Source of the DNA: Chelativorans salis
GTDB taxonomy: Bacteria; Pseudomonadota; Alphaproteobacteria; Rhizobiales; Rhizobiaceae
Length of the DNA stretch: 64,000 bases
Reading direction: 5' to 3'
Assembly (NCBI RefSeq): GCF_025336525.1
Contig: NZ_JAOCZP010000007.1
Span: 1-64,000, forward strand
Positions within the stretch are counted from its first letter, which is position 1. Each line of letters starts with the position of its first letter. A program made the position numbers and the translations under genes. Under the pieces are notes generated by a model. It made no database searches. It saw nothing but the letters and a program-made list of their open reading frames with translations, and was not told where the DNA came from. This document shows, piece by piece, positions 14,805 to 60,687 of the stretch.

Positions 14805-15536
14805 GGGTGCTTTCCAGATTTGTCGCGGCGATCTTGCCGCTGTGAGCAAGAGCGGCAAGGACCAGCGCCGCTGCGGCCGTTGTACCTGGGCGATGAAGGG
14901 GCGACGAGATAGATCACAGGCGCCGGCTGGCCCAATGTTGATCCAAAGTGGGGATAAATTCCGCCCCTCGTTCCCGCCAACCCATTGATCCCCCACAACC
15001 TGCAAACTTTTCTCGCAGGAAAACTCGCCCCCCACCTCACGCCGCCCCTATCATAGCCTCATCGCTCTCGCGGGAACCGGATGCGCACCGGGTGTTCGGG
15101 ATAGCGGCGGCAGCCTCCCCCTCCGGGTCGGTTCCGGAGGCATGTGAGGGCCCGCGAACGGGCCGGAGTCCGGCAGGCCCATCGCAAGATGGCAATGCCG
15201 GATGCGGAAAAGCCGCGGGGTTTCGGCAAAGGCGCTTCACTGCGTGTGTCCGTCCGGAGCCAGAAAGAGCCCTTAGACCGGTCGAATGTCGGGACAGCGG
15301 CCGGCGGGGCGCGTTGCTCGCGCCTTAAAGTTAATAGAGTGGCACGGACAACGCGCCCCGCTTCCCACCCAATCAACGGCCAGACGCTTCGGCGGGCGTG
15401 GCGACGATGAGGCGCGTCCTTACCTCCCGCACTGGCAAGACCGAAAGAGGCATATCGATCATGAATCTGACTACGCAGCCTGAATTGCAATCACCTGCCA
15501 CTGGCGCGGCCCGTGCGCGCGGCCTATATTGCGGCT
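14805..15536. other. gene-free stretch of about 730 bp with several strong hairpins
   Basis: No reading frame here shows protein-like composition or a recognisable family. The sequence contains well-formed short hairpins: CCTCCGG/CCGGAGG (15120-15140), GGCCCG-CGAA-CGGGCC (15149-15164, a GNRA-type tetraloop), GCGG/CCGC (15204-15216) and GGCGCG/CGCGCC (15308-15324). It lies between the GNAT promoter region and the probable 6S RNA promoter. I do not recognise it as tmRNA, RNase P RNA, SRP RNA or a known riboswitch. Confidence 0.5.
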
Positions 15537-15696
15537 GCGGTCTGCGCCTCGCGACAGGAAATCATTTCCCCGGGGCCTTATCGATCCTTAAGGGAGCTGT
15601 CCCTGGCCTCGCTCGTGGGCTTGGCTATACGGCGCCCACCTACTTTGTAGGTTCCCGGGATCGACATTCCATCGGTTGTCGTGGATCGCATCTTTC
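15537..15696 (+). ncRNA. ssrS: probable 6S RNA (ssrS)
   Basis: A -10 like TATATT (15525-15530) precedes a roughly 160-base segment whose ends pair. TGCGCCTCGCGAC (15543-15555) and GTCGTGGATCGCA (15678-15690) form a 4 bp helix, a 2x2 internal loop and a 7 bp helix. The middle holds a GGGC/GCCC hairpin (15617-15636) and an ACCTAC-TTT-GTAGGT hairpin. The long closing stem with an open middle, the length, and the location just upstream of the 5-formyl-THF cyclo-ligase gene (the usual ssrS-ygfA neighbour) all indicate 6S RNA, the RNA polymerase regulator. Exact ends are estimated. Confidence 0.7.
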
Positions 15697-31498: not shown

Positions 31499-33142
31499 GT
31501 GAGCGACAATCCTTACGCGCAGAATCTCGACAGAAACCCCGCGAACCACCAGCCGCTGACGCCGCTGACGCTGATGGAGCGGGCGGCGATGACCTTTCCT
31601 GACCATACGGCCATCATCCATGGCGAGACCCGGCGTACATACCGGGAATTCTGGCAGCGTTCGCGGCAGCTTGCGTCCGCCCTTGCCCGCCACGGCATTG
31701 GCAAGGGCGACACGGTGTCGGCGATGCTGTCGAACACGCCGCCCATGCTGGAGGCGCATTTCGGCGTGCCGATGACGAAGGCGGTGCTCCACTCTATCAA
31801 CACGCGCCTCGACGCCGCCGTCGTCGCCTTCCAGCTCGACCATGCTGATGCGAAGGTGGTGATCGTCGACCGCGAGTTCTCCGGCGTCATGAAGGAGGCA
31901 CTGGCCAGGGCCAAGGTGGAGCCGCTGGTGATCGACTACGACGATCCGGACTATCCCGCCGACGCACCCCATCCCAAGGGGGAACCGATTGGAAGCGCAG
32001 AATACGAGGCTTTCGTGGCCTCGGGCGATGCCGACTTCGCCTGGGCGATGCCGGACGATGAATGGGACGCCATCTCGCTCAACTACACCTCGGGCACGAC
32101 GGGCAATCCCAAGGGGGTGGTCTACCATCACCGCGGCGCGGCGCTGATGGCTTATGCCAATACGGTCCATGCGGGCCTCGGGCGGCATCCGGTCTATCTG
32201 TGGACGTTGCCCATGTTCCATTGCAACGGCTGGTGCTTTCCCTGGACGCTGGCGCTTCAGGCGGGAACTCACGTATGCCTGCGCTGGGTGCGCGCGAAAG
32301 CCATGTACGATGCGATCACCGATCATGGCGTGACGCATCTTTGCGGGGCGCCCGTCGTCATGGGAACGCTGGTCAATGCCGAGGAGGCGGATCGCCGCGA
32401 CTTCCCGCAGACCGTCATCTTCAACACAGCCGCTGCACCGCCGCCCGAATCCGTTCTGGCGGCGATGGCAGATGCCGGTTTCATCGTCACTCACCTCTAC
32501 GGGTTGACTGAAACCTACGGCCCCGCAGTGGTGAACGAGTGGAAGATGGCTTGGGACGGCCTCGACGGGCCGGAGCAGGCGACGCGCAAGGCGCGGCAGG
32601 GCGTGCGCTACGCGACGCTGGAAGGCCTGACGGTGATGGACCCCGAGACCATGAAGCCCGTTCCGCCCGACGGCGAGACGCTGGGCGAGGTGATGTTCCG
32701 CGGGAACATCGTCATGAAGGGATACCTGAAAAACAAGGCGGCGACGGACGAAGCCTTTGCCGGCGGCTGGTTCCATTCCGGCGATCTCGGTGTGCTGCAC
32801 CCGGACGGTTACATCCAGCTCAAGGACCGCTCAAAGGACATCATCATCTCAGGCGGCGAGAACATTTCCTCCATCGAGGTGGAGGACGCGCTCTACAAGC
32901 ATCCGGCCATCGCCGCATGCGGTGTGGTGGCGCGCGCGGACGACAAATGGGGCGAGACGCCGGTGGCCTTCGTCGAATTAAAGCCGGGCAAGCAGGCAAG
33001 TGCGGAGGAGATCATCGATCATTGCCGGCGGCTGCTCGCATCGTTCAAGTGCCCGCGCCATGTGTTTTTTGTGGAAATCCCGAAGACGTCGACGGGGAAA
33101 ATCCAGAAGTTCAAGCTGCGCGACCTGGCAAAGGCGATGTGA
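31499..33142 (+). CDS. acyl-CoA synthetase (AMP-forming)
   Basis: 547 residues. The AMP-binding motif YTSGTTGNPKGVVYHHRG lies at about residue 195, LYGLTETYG in the middle, and the C-terminal GWFHSGDLGV, DRSKDIIISGGENIS and the acyl-adenylate lysine in PKTSTGKIQKFKLR. The pattern is that of medium/long-chain or aryl acyl-CoA ligases of the fadD3/AlkK kind. The GTG start has a strong GGGAGG ribosome-binding site. Downstream is a 160 bp gap with a CtrA box and a probable small RNA. Confidence 0.92.
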   Translation: MSDNPYAQNLDRNPANHQPLTPLTLMERAAMTFPDHTAIIHGETRRTYREFWQRSRQLASALARHGIGKGDTVSAMLSNTPPMLEAHFGVPMTKAVLHSINTRLDAAVVAFQLDHADAKVVIVDREFSGVMKEALARAKVEPLVIDYDDPDYPADAPHPKGEPIGSAEYEAFVASGDADFAWAMPDDEWDAISLNYTSGTTGNPKGVVYHHRGAALMAYANTVHAGLGRHPVYLWTLPMFHCNGWCFPWTLALQAGTHVCLRWVRAKAMYDAITDHGVTHLCGAPVVMGTLVNAEEADRRDFPQTVIFNTAAAPPPESVLAAMADAGFIVTHLYGLTETYGPAVVNEWKMAWDGLDGPEQATRKARQGVRYATLEGLTVMDPETMKPVPPDGETLGEVMFRGNIVMKGYLKNKAATDEAFAGGWFHSGDLGVLHPDGYIQLKDRSKDIIISGGENISSIEVEDALYKHPAIAACGVVARADDKWGETPVAFVELKPGKQASAEEIIDHCRRLLASFKCPRHVFFVEIPKTSTGKIQKFKLRDLAKAM

Positions 33143-33192: not shown

Positions 33193-33207
33193 TTAACCTT
33201 CTGTTAA
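33193..33207 (+). promoter_or_regulatory. CtrA box (TTAA-N7-TTAA) ahead of the small RNA candidate
   Basis: TTAACCTTCTGTTAA is a perfect match to the TTAA-N7-TTAA consensus of the cell-cycle regulator CtrA. It is centred about 30 bases ahead of the first hairpin of the RNA candidate, overlapping the expected -35 region, the position of CtrA-activated promoters. No clear sigma70 -35 replaces it. Functional assignment is inferred from motif and position. Confidence 0.7.
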
Positions 33208-33229
33208 GCTTTACGGGTGTTTACTGTGT

Positions 33230-33328
33230 TTATCCAGTGATCTGGATTCTTACCGAGTGGCTGGAGCCATTCTGTTTGACGCCTCCCTGTTAAACTCCTG
33301 AGAGCCGCAACCGCGGCTCTTTTTTTTC
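33230..33328 (+). ncRNA. candidate trans-acting small RNA with anti-Shine-Dalgarno loop
   Basis: Four consecutive hairpins with little spacing: ATCCAG-TGAT-CTGGAT (33232-33247); AGTGGC-TGGA-GCCATT (33256-33271); GTTTGAC-GCCTCCCT-GTTAAAC (33274-33295), which displays CCUCCC complementary to a Shine-Dalgarno; and a terminator stem with eight Ts (33301-33328). No protein-like ORF is present. The stop of the upstream synthetase gene is 90 bases away and a CtrA box precedes the element. This is the layout of roughly 100-nt rhizobial trans-sRNAs. The 5' end is estimated and the family is unassigned. Confidence 0.68.
33301..33328 (+). terminator. strong intrinsic terminator of the small RNA candidate
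   Basis: AGAGCCGC (33301-33308), loop AACC, GCGGCTCT (33313-33320), followed by a T-run to 33327. A textbook rho-independent terminator about 160 bp beyond the acyl-CoA synthetase stop. Confidence 0.92.
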
Positions 33329-33358: not shown

Positions 33359-33373
33359 TTAACGCTTTGTTAA
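33359..33373 (+). promoter_or_regulatory. CtrA box (TTAA-N7-TTAA) ahead of rcdA
   Basis: TTAACGCTTTGTTAA is a second perfect CtrA consensus, 103 bp before the rcdA start and 31 bp after the small RNA terminator. It implies that rcdA, whose product helps degrade CtrA, is itself CtrA-regulated: a feedback loop. Inferred from motif and context. Confidence 0.7.
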
Positions 33374-33475
33374 GCTAGGGCTTGCGTTCAGGCTTCTCAA
33401 AGCGCATTTTGCCGCCCTCAAGAAGGCTACAACAATGGACATGCGCCGGATTGGGCGCAGTGGGATTGGGGCGTG

Positions 33476-34012
33476 ATGCGCATGGTCACGGGCAGTACGG
33501 GTAGCGCCAATATGGTCAAGTTGGCGGAGAGGCGGGTTTTCTCTCATTCGTTTAAGCCGCTCTACAATGAGGGCATGGGGCTGGTCGAAGAGGCGGCCGA
33601 ATATCTCGATGGCGATGGGCGCTTGGCCGCCAAGGAGCTGCCGCAGGTGGCGGCGGGGCTCTATGCGGCCGAATCGATGCGCCTGACGACGCGCCTCATG
33701 CAGCTCGCTTCCTGGCTCTTGCTGCAAAGGGCCGCCAATTCCGGCGAGATGACGCGGGAACAGGTCGCGGTCGAGAAGGCGAAGGTGCGGCTCGACACCG
33801 CCTCCGCCCACGAGGATGCGCCCGGATGGGCCGAACTGCCGGAGGCTTTCCGCAGTCTGGTGCGGCGTTCGCTGCGGCTGGAGGCGCTGGTGCGGCGCAT
33901 GGACGAGCAAATCTACGGTCCGGAGGCGGAGCGGACGTTGGACGAGCCGTTCGCGGTCAATCCTGTCTCGGACCAGATCACCCTGCTGCAAACCGCCTTC
34001 GGGCGTGGCTGA
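33476..34012 (+). CDS. rcdA: RcdA/DUF1465 protein (adaptor for CtrA proteolysis)
   Basis: About 178 residues, helical, of the DUF1465 family whose Caulobacter member RcdA is the ClpXP adaptor that helps deliver CtrA and other substrates. Family stretches: FSHSFKPLYNEGMGLVEEAAEYLDGDGR, YAAESMRLTTRLMQLASWLL, EQVAVEKAKVRL, and VNPVSDQITLLQTAFGRG at the C terminus. Several starts are possible (33473 GTG, 33476 ATG, 33482 ATG); none has a perfect ribosome-binding site. A CtrA box lies 103 bp upstream. Function in this organism is inferred from the family. Confidence 0.82.
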   Translation: MRMVTGSTGSANMVKLAERRVFSHSFKPLYNEGMGLVEEAAEYLDGDGRLAAKELPQVAAGLYAAESMRLTTRLMQLASWLLLQRAANSGEMTREQVAVEKAKVRLDTASAHEDAPGWAELPEAFRSLVRRSLRLEALVRRMDEQIYGPEAERTLDEPFAVNPVSDQITLLQTAFGRG

Positions 34013-48624: not shown

Positions 48625-48639
48625 TTAAGCGGCGTTTAA
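48625..48639 (+). promoter_or_regulatory. CtrA box ahead of the first outer-membrane protein gene
   Basis: TTAAGCGGCGTTTAA is a perfect TTAA-N7-TTAA match, 85 bp upstream of the ATG. A second, degenerate copy (TTCACCATGACTCAA, 48656-48670) differs in only two bases from the perfect box ahead of the next paralogue, suggesting the promoter region was duplicated with the gene. Confidence 0.65.
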
Positions 48640-49658: not shown

Positions 49659-49673
49659 TTAACCATGACTTAA
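49659..49673 (+). promoter_or_regulatory. CtrA box ahead of the second outer-membrane protein gene
   Basis: TTAACCATGACTTAA is a perfect TTAA-N7-TTAA match, 77 bp upstream of the ATG; a further GTTAAC follows at 49682. Similar spacing to the box ahead of the upstream paralogue. Confidence 0.68.
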
Positions 49674-50525: not shown

Positions 50526-50585
50526 TTGACGCGGCGGCCCTGACAGCATAACCCCCTCCGTGGGCCACCCCTCCCCACCGAGGGG
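50526..50585 (+). promoter_or_regulatory. serC promoter and structured leader (possible serC RNA motif)
   Basis: TTGACG (50526-50531) with a CATAAC-like -10 near 50547-50552 would start transcription near 50558. The short leader then contains CCCCTC-CCCACC-GAGGGG (50568-50585), a strong hairpin ending 10 bases before the GGAAGGG ribosome-binding site. A weaker CCC/GGG hairpin lies just before it (50554-50564). Two small hairpins near the Shine-Dalgarno of serC in an alphaproteobacterium fit the reported serC RNA motif. Assignment is by position and shape only. Confidence 0.45.
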
Positions 50586-50611
50586 CGAGCTATCTGGAAG
50601 GGTAGAACATC

Positions 50612-60611: not shown

Positions 60612-60687
60612 GCTCCCATCGTCTAGCGGTCTAGGACGCCGCCCTCTCACGGCGGAAACAGGGGTTCGAGTCCCCTTGGGAGTGCCA
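60612..60687 (+). tRNA. tRNA-Glu (anticodon CTC)
   Basis: Full cloverleaf with encoded CCA. Acceptor GCTCCCA pairs TGGGAGT (with one G-T pair at the end), D-loop TCTAGCGGTCTAGGA, anticodon stem CCGCC/GGCGG around loop CTCTCAC with anticodon CTC (60646-60648) reading GAG, and T-arm GGGGTTCGAGTCCCC. Confidence 0.97.

Follow-up and report, generated by a model that had tools for sequence, protein, structure and literature searches.

Is the short segment of DNA that separates an acyl-CoA synthetase gene from rcdA in Chelativorans salis the gene of a small RNA (sRNA) that CtrA switches on and, if so, what might that RNA do? The original prediction, made from the letters of the window (the whole stretch of DNA analysed here, 64,000 nucleotides), answered with a CtrA-driven sRNA that displays an anti-Shine-Dalgarno (anti-SD) loop and blocks the translation of cell-cycle mRNAs, perhaps a homologue of EcpR1 or of an alpha-r/cuckoo RNA; it also proposed an Rfam search and target prediction with the loop. 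The explanation that we find best overall, and on balance probable, keeps the first part of that answer: an sRNA that CtrA activates and that acts in trans by masking Shine-Dalgarno sequences.

An RNA of a described family in front of rcdA

The layout of the locus (Table 1) is as first described: a perfect CtrA-type box, four hairpins that are recovered in the fold of 33232-33327 and of which the third carries CCUCCC in its loop, a terminator at the end, and the acyl-CoA synthetase and rcdA genes on either side. The 5' end of the RNA is placed, by inference, at the first base of hairpin 1 (33232). No open reading frame of at least 20 amino acids lies inside 33232-33327, in agreement with the earlier reading; one open frame enters the sRNA region from upstream and stops at 33207. 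The sole solved-structure match of the downstream gene product is RcdA (3ctw, E 1.8e-27).

Table 1. Features of the sRNA locus, in window coordinates
Feature	Position	Strand	Basis and remarks
AMP-binding acyl-CoA synthetase gene, upstream flank	31499-33142		reads towards the sRNA
CtrA box 1, TTAACCTTCTGTTAA	33193-33207	+	exact TTAA-N7-TTAA (motif scan); 5' base 39 nt upstream of the predicted start
Predicted -10 element TTTACT, weak	33220-33225	+	box-anchored profile of 192 loci, A/T-rich from +27 to +32 counted from the first base of the box
Hairpin 1, AUCCAG/CUGGAU	33232-33247	+	fold; 97.3% of cells paired; both-side changes in 4/6 pairs
Hairpin 2, GAGUGGC/GCCAUUC	33255-33272	+	fold; 99.6% paired; both-side changes in 4/6 pairs
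Hairpin 3, anti-SD loop CCUCCC at 33282-33287	33274-33295	+	fold; 88% paired; both-side changes in 2/5 pairs
Intrinsic terminator (hairpin 4 and T run)	33300-33327	+	98.9% paired; both-side changes in 4/7 pairs; stem 33300-33321, 8-T run 33320-33327
CtrA box 2, in the interval near rcdA	33359-33373	+	exact TTAA-N7-TTAA
rcdA (PF07323; RcdA-like, DUF1465 protein)	33473-34012	+	usual downstream neighbour; start codon provisional

The Rfam search, now run, leads to a family that is already described. With cmscan, 33183-33326 matches RF02356 (BjrC1505) at 71.3 bits (cut-off 50) over model positions 1-140 of 140; its 3' hairpins and its terminator are both there, apart from 2 broken pairs at the apex of the terminator stem. 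Elsewhere in the window Rfam identifies 6S RNA (15536-15691), a serC leader (50558-50610) and a tRNA (60612-60684). The RNA is almost certainly a BjrC1505 family member. BjrC1505 is named for Bradyrhizobium japonicum; its founding paper, by Madhugiri in 2012, reportedly detected it on blots in B. japonicum, at a lower level in nodules. The family has a name and a model; in the open-licence literature we did not find RF02356 by its identifier, BjrC1505 appears in a single paper, as a list entry, and no function was found. The available portions of the open-licence literature on CtrA and sRNAs yielded neither a CtrA-controlled BjrC1505 nor an rcdA-associated sRNA of this kind.

The family is widespread. 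Of 297 genomes sampled from the host order, 245 match RF02356 at E 0.001 (212 above cut-off). In the host family, with one genome per genus, 75 of 81 match at a loose E of 1 (48 above cut-off), a threshold at which 3 of 14 controls also match. Most of these weak host-family matches are nevertheless real: the CtrA box is present in 73 of the 75 usable loci, and in 73 RcdA lies no more than 600 nt downstream. Across the class sample it is found in 30 of 289 genomes, counting the genome analysed here and two others of its order. Among the matches listed, an exact 36-base core occurs in Mesorhizobium, Aminobacter, Brucella/Ochrobactrum, Nitratireductor, Chelativorans and others; the nearest RcdA relatives among the fetched loci have ~78% identity. 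RF02356 is single-copy in the C. salis genome, and a second model, R1, built from the mature part of the RNA as explained below, likewise gives one match at E up to 10. Outside the order, three genomes, G581 (L118/L224), G747 (L225/L280) and G374 (L111), have two or three R1 matches each; those of G747, and two of the three that G581 has, are arranged in tandem ~100 nt apart.

The predicted fold of 33232-33327 has a free energy of -38.8 kcal/mol (z -5.85), which none of 200 shuffles equals. Pair counts come from alignment A2, 40 sequences narrower in range than the 78 of the wide alignment A1 and picked by hand, so that the counts lean to the main type. In A2, 96.4% of cells pair, and sliding the partners lowers pairing to below 46%; both sides have changed in 14 of 24 pairs, against a shuffled mean of 4.1 and with none of 500 shuffles as high. 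Such compensatory changes support the predicted fold. On A1, RNAalifold recovers the terminator alone. Hairpin 3 has the least well paired stem of the four (Table 1), and its loop is among the most constant parts of the RNA: CTCCCTGT is kept in 194 of 199 loci, as is CUCCCUGU, and the wider forms CCTCCCTGT and GACGCCTCCCTGT in 178 and 167 of the 199. A terminal run of at least five T is present in 195/199.

One group of genera of the host family (L082, L089-L093, L095-L101, L103) departs from this plan: other sequence (CAGACA...GTCTGATTTT) stands in place of hairpin 2 and of the hairpin 3 stem, and CTCCCTGTT and the terminator are retained. In L090, the folded example, the anti-SD stretch stays unpaired.

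The CtrA box and the start of the RNA

A plain sigma-70 scan finds no promoter at the start region of the sRNA. What the region does have is the box, one of 4 TTAA-N7-TTAA sites in the 64-kb window, where shuffles lead one to expect 0.07. Conservation of the box was followed through 200 loci, 110 of them from the order search (taken from ~150 best-scoring places listed), with 74 more contributed by the family search and 16 by that of the class; L104, which lacks the core and is probably a false match, and L199, with a short upstream part, were dropped from the count. With 65 starts scanned upstream, a box of at least 7/8 is found in 192 of the 198 remaining loci, perfect in 106 and with one mismatch in 86. 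The corresponding rates are 0.9% and 10.4% in shuffles of the same stretches, and 0.1% and 0.3% in 981 control windows taken elsewhere. The box is kept both within the host order (177/182 loci) and outside it (15/16). Each of 47 GTDB families (codes transferred by hand) has at least one locus at this level, and in 42 of them all loci reach it.

Spacing is conserved as well: the best boxes lie 83-97 nt ahead of the loop core in 182 of the 192 loci, and of the 170 loci whose hairpin 1 is recognized by pattern, 141 have the start of the box 38-40 nt ahead of it. In the window the 5' base of the box is 39 nt ahead of the start inferred from hairpin 1, as compared with about -35 to -39 at CtrA-activated promoters. 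According to the available part of a Caulobacter study (PMC4287350), the 5' base of a full CtrA motif falls near -35 where the promoter is activated, and at -39 in a P2 promoter that by our reading is that of ctrA; the CtrA-linked starts include rcdA and 6 non-coding RNAs. The earlier proposal of a CtrA box overlapping the -35 fits the predicted start, with box and spacing conserved in 47 families. The box is palindromic, so that it does not by itself give a direction.

The RF02356 model contains the box, which carries a risk of circularity, and R1 was therefore built from the mature part alone. It was searched in 385 genomes of the class, of which 68 matched at E 0.01; 50 listed matches were examined (30 search loci and 20 fetched), leaving out four from the C. 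salis genome or its order and one duplicate. Outside the order, 28 of the 37 matches that are not mmgR-like have a box of at least 7/8 (shuffles, 11%), against 0 of the 8 that are mmgR-like. Hence the box tracks the BjrC1505 RNA and not look-alikes with the same loop. Fifteen of the 37 had already been counted among the 200 loci, and 14 of these have the box; the other 22 divide into 14 with it and 8 without. Five of these 8 are themselves mmgR-like or doubtful: L274 (a box of 5) is mmgR-like and was left among the 37 by the pattern used, and L266, L268 and L270, all of one genus, and L271 are doubtful members.

The 5' end of the Rfam model fits the same picture of a promoter. RF02356 has 14 pairs in its positions 1-48, and 6 of them are broken in the window; among nine aligned members the number of broken 5' pairs runs from ~2 (L153) to 6 (L003, L036), with few breaks further 3', and L003 is the best scorer, at 138 bits, yet has 6. 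When every second locus is taken, 100 in all, the mean folding z is -0.26 for the 48-nt promoter stretch (13% below -2) and -1.87 for the mature part without its terminator (46% below -2). Both the CtrA box and the -10-like block lie in the DNA under positions 1-48. It seems, then, that these positions resemble promoter DNA and that the 5' helices are spurious. We read the broken helices as a flaw of the model that leaves family membership unaffected, which suggests that RF02356 should start ~48 positions later.

An independent sRNA is very probable, and control of it by CtrA from the predicted start, judged from the sequence, equally so. An RNA of ~96 nt would be transcribed from its own intergenic promoter, where CtrA~P would bind the full box with its 5' base at -39 of the predicted start, cover the -35 region and activate. 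The conserved box would point to a likely regulator of this widespread RNA and to the time at which it is expressed.

Two other kinds of site may be mentioned here. Further perfect CtrA boxes in the window, at 48625-48639 and 49659-49673, each lie ~75-100 bp ahead of an ORF (48724 and 49750), both ORFs reading as putative Omp25/Omp31-like outer-membrane proteins. GANTC sites occur in the 5' half in 59 of 198 loci, and in 45 of 75 in the host family.

The sRNA, rcdA and the upstream gene as possible owners of the box

RcdA follows on the same strand in 188 of the 200 loci (tblastn), starting ~169 nt (median) past the end of the RNA match. Linkage this close also suits a role in cis, and the RNA could be imagined as a leader or attenuator of rcdA, CtrA initiating at box 1 and the terminator gating rcdA; several rcdA start sites in three agrobacterial lineages, where CtrA sites are farther upstream than in Caulobacter (PMC10469942, in the part available), would fit such an arrangement. 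We consider it unlikely. Eleven core-bearing loci have no RcdA match in the 1.2-2 kb examined (one ends at a contig edge 165 nt past the RNA), in 7 further loci rcdA is 509-1450 nt distant, and all 18 keep the RNA and a box of 7 or 8. The T run is nearly universal, attenuation needs no constant anti-SD loop, and the rcdA-proximal interval has its own box of at least 7/8 in 78 of 180 loci (3.3% of shuffles), as it has in the window. The preferred sRNA would instead stop at its own terminator ahead of rcdA and act in trans. In the outgroup loci L108, L111 and L117 an apparent O-acetylhomoserine sulfhydrylase-like gene takes the place of rcdA, and L109 and L110 have an ORF similar to it in size and position.

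The box might, alternatively, belong to rcdA or to the upstream neighbour and merely lie near an ordinary anti-SD sRNA. Many cell-cycle genes are preceded by CtrA boxes, and rcdA is bound by CtrA in S. meliloti (PMC4433202) and has CtrA motifs. Against this reading, which we rate as improbable as the leader, stand the nearly fixed spacing between box and hairpin 1, the persistence of the box where rcdA is missing, and the direction of the upstream gene: because it points at the sRNA in the window, the box serves no divergent gene there, and in a crude open-frame count of 199 loci it does so in 72, where no divergent promoter is called for (away in 115, none in 7, not scored in 5). Since the upstream neighbour differs among loci and reads away in those 115, an origin of the RNA by read-through, as a 3' UTR of the acyl-CoA synthetase gene, is also unlikely. 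At L108, L111, L131, L135 and L160 the upstream gene appears to be a divergent, quinone-oxidoreductase-like one, with a DUF1013-like gene seemingly beyond it at L108 and L160.

Assigning box 1 to the sRNA offers an explanation for a finding in S. meliloti. There, according to the accessible part of PMC4433202, CtrA occupies the rcdA promoter by ChIP-seq, rcdA is essential, and its expression is unchanged on CtrA depletion, for which the authors propose stringent cut-offs or further regulation. A bound but unresponsive rcdA is what one would expect if the bound site drives another transcript, and we infer that the CtrA peak may reflect the promoter of the BjrC1505 RNA. The RNA is not named in the available parts of PMC4287350, PMC4433202 and PMC10469942.

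The loop, its candidate targets and related RNAs

The constant loop, CCUCCC/CUCCCUGU, would pair with Shine-Dalgarno sequences of GGGAG type and block translation of a set of mRNAs; anti-SD action of the loop is likely, if a little less so than CtrA control. The proposed loop-based prediction was carried out in two ways. A search for ACAGGGAGGCGTC, the complement of the loop, allowing 2 mismatches at most, is uninformative: the genome has 177 sites, one of which is the sRNA, and the reversed control has 145. Ribosome-binding-site patterns give a faint hint. An ORF of at least 60 amino acids follows ACAGGGAG in 18 of 24 places (17 proteins, two overlapping), CAAGGGAG in 25 of the 30 fetched from 39 places, and ACAAGGAG in 22 of 29. 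Solute-binding proteins, recognized by Pfam (first 25 families listed) and by reading of N-termini, number 8/17, 10/25 and 3/22, respectively. Their share is thus 18/42 at GGGAG-type sites against 3/22 at AAGGAG sites (p 0.025, uncorrected, with the AAGGAG sites as baseline). The wider loop pairing of ACAGGGAG brings no enrichment of binding proteins over CAAGGGAG (8/17 vs 10/25, p 0.75). In relatives, 30 loci of ~150 listed places, inspected by eye and with no control, include many binding proteins.

Because GGGAG-type sites are the richer in solute-binding proteins, uptake mRNAs are the likeliest class of target, at low confidence: transporter mRNAs, those of solute-binding proteins, are put forward tentatively. 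Repression of cell-cycle mRNAs, which the original prediction had in mind, finds no signal in the sites searched. The mRNAs blocked would most likely include those of periplasmic binding proteins of uptake systems, and the CtrA-active phase would then be coupled to lower synthesis of these systems. RcdA is an adaptor of CtrA proteolysis. A still more speculative extension is that of a widespread sRNA in an ancient CtrA circuit, in which a pulse of CtrA might prepare its own destruction through the adjacent rcdA and silence uptake mRNAs through the anti-SD loop. If that were true, a conserved RNA arm would tie nutrient uptake to the phase of the cell cycle.

Among known RNAs, EcpR1 had been proposed as a homologue. 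It lies at divK-pleD/rpmG (PMC4414408, available part), in contrast to the acyl-CoA synthetase/rcdA setting and the RF02356 match found here. Compared by locus and description, the identity with EcpR1 (SmelC291) is rejected; four hairpins stand against two stem-loop domains. Like the present RNA, EcpR1 is, from what is accessible about it, widespread in Rhizobiales and linked to the cell cycle; it differs in being induced by stress and the stringent response and in repressing gcrA and dnaA.

The other suggested kinship, with AbcR (alpha-r15), does not hold either: the suhB model gives the window RNA 28 bits (cut-off 41), and neither of the 8-nt AbcR motifs occurs within 33232-33327. AbcR1 and AbcR2 share with it CU-rich anti-SD motifs; they have two distinct 8-nt motifs, tandem genes, and control by LsrB and RpoH1. 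In the available part of PMC8844928, CU-rich anti-SD stretches are the working parts of AbcR1/2, and the targets are mostly transport and metabolic mRNAs. mmgR/suhB (RF00519) shares with it a CCUCCCU stretch ahead of a G+C-rich terminator and is set apart by the sub-threshold score and by the eight look-alikes that lack a 7/8 box. That the RNA is an EcpR1 or AbcR/mmgR family member under another name, as the common CUCCC loop and the weak suhB/mmgR match might suggest, is very improbable, given the EcpR1 locus, the boxless mmgR-type matches, and separate matches of these types in the C. salis genome: L512 (C18:9338-9417, 58 bits) is suhB/mmgR-type, and L513 (C12:320640-320726), with a CUCCUCCC stretch, is AbcR-like by reading (the suhB model scores it at 34.1 bits, short of the cut-off). 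Of the original prediction, the CtrA-driven anti-SD sRNA is supported by box, spacing and loop; homology with EcpR1 or AbcR, and cell-cycle targets in the sites searched, find no support.

The SorX and SorY RNAs of Rhodobacter (RF02784, RF02651) are stress-controlled and have a transporter target, takP. The SorY consensus and outgroup L108 share a ACCUCCCUGUUGGACUU-like core (34.8 bits, cut-off 111); on the window RNA the SorY model gives 13.1 bits (cut-off 111). Cuckoo (CcsR) RNAs have several copies with CCUCCUCCC loops; here there are a single R1 match in the genome and the loop CCUCCC, and that identity is dropped. The alias alpha-r45, which we take to be C45 of S. meliloti, is rejected too, SmelC706/C45 being RF00518. 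Caulobacter offers a parallel of another sort in its CtrA-linked non-coding RNAs, CcnA for example, which have CtrA sites or are tied to CtrA control. No CtrA control was found stated for BjrC1505 itself, which the window RNA matches over the full length of RF02356, with the same 3' hairpins, loop and terminator; the model differs in beginning in apparent promoter DNA. The RNA family is already described, and what is new here is the promoter-like 5' end of its model, the conserved CtrA box and the linkage to rcdA.
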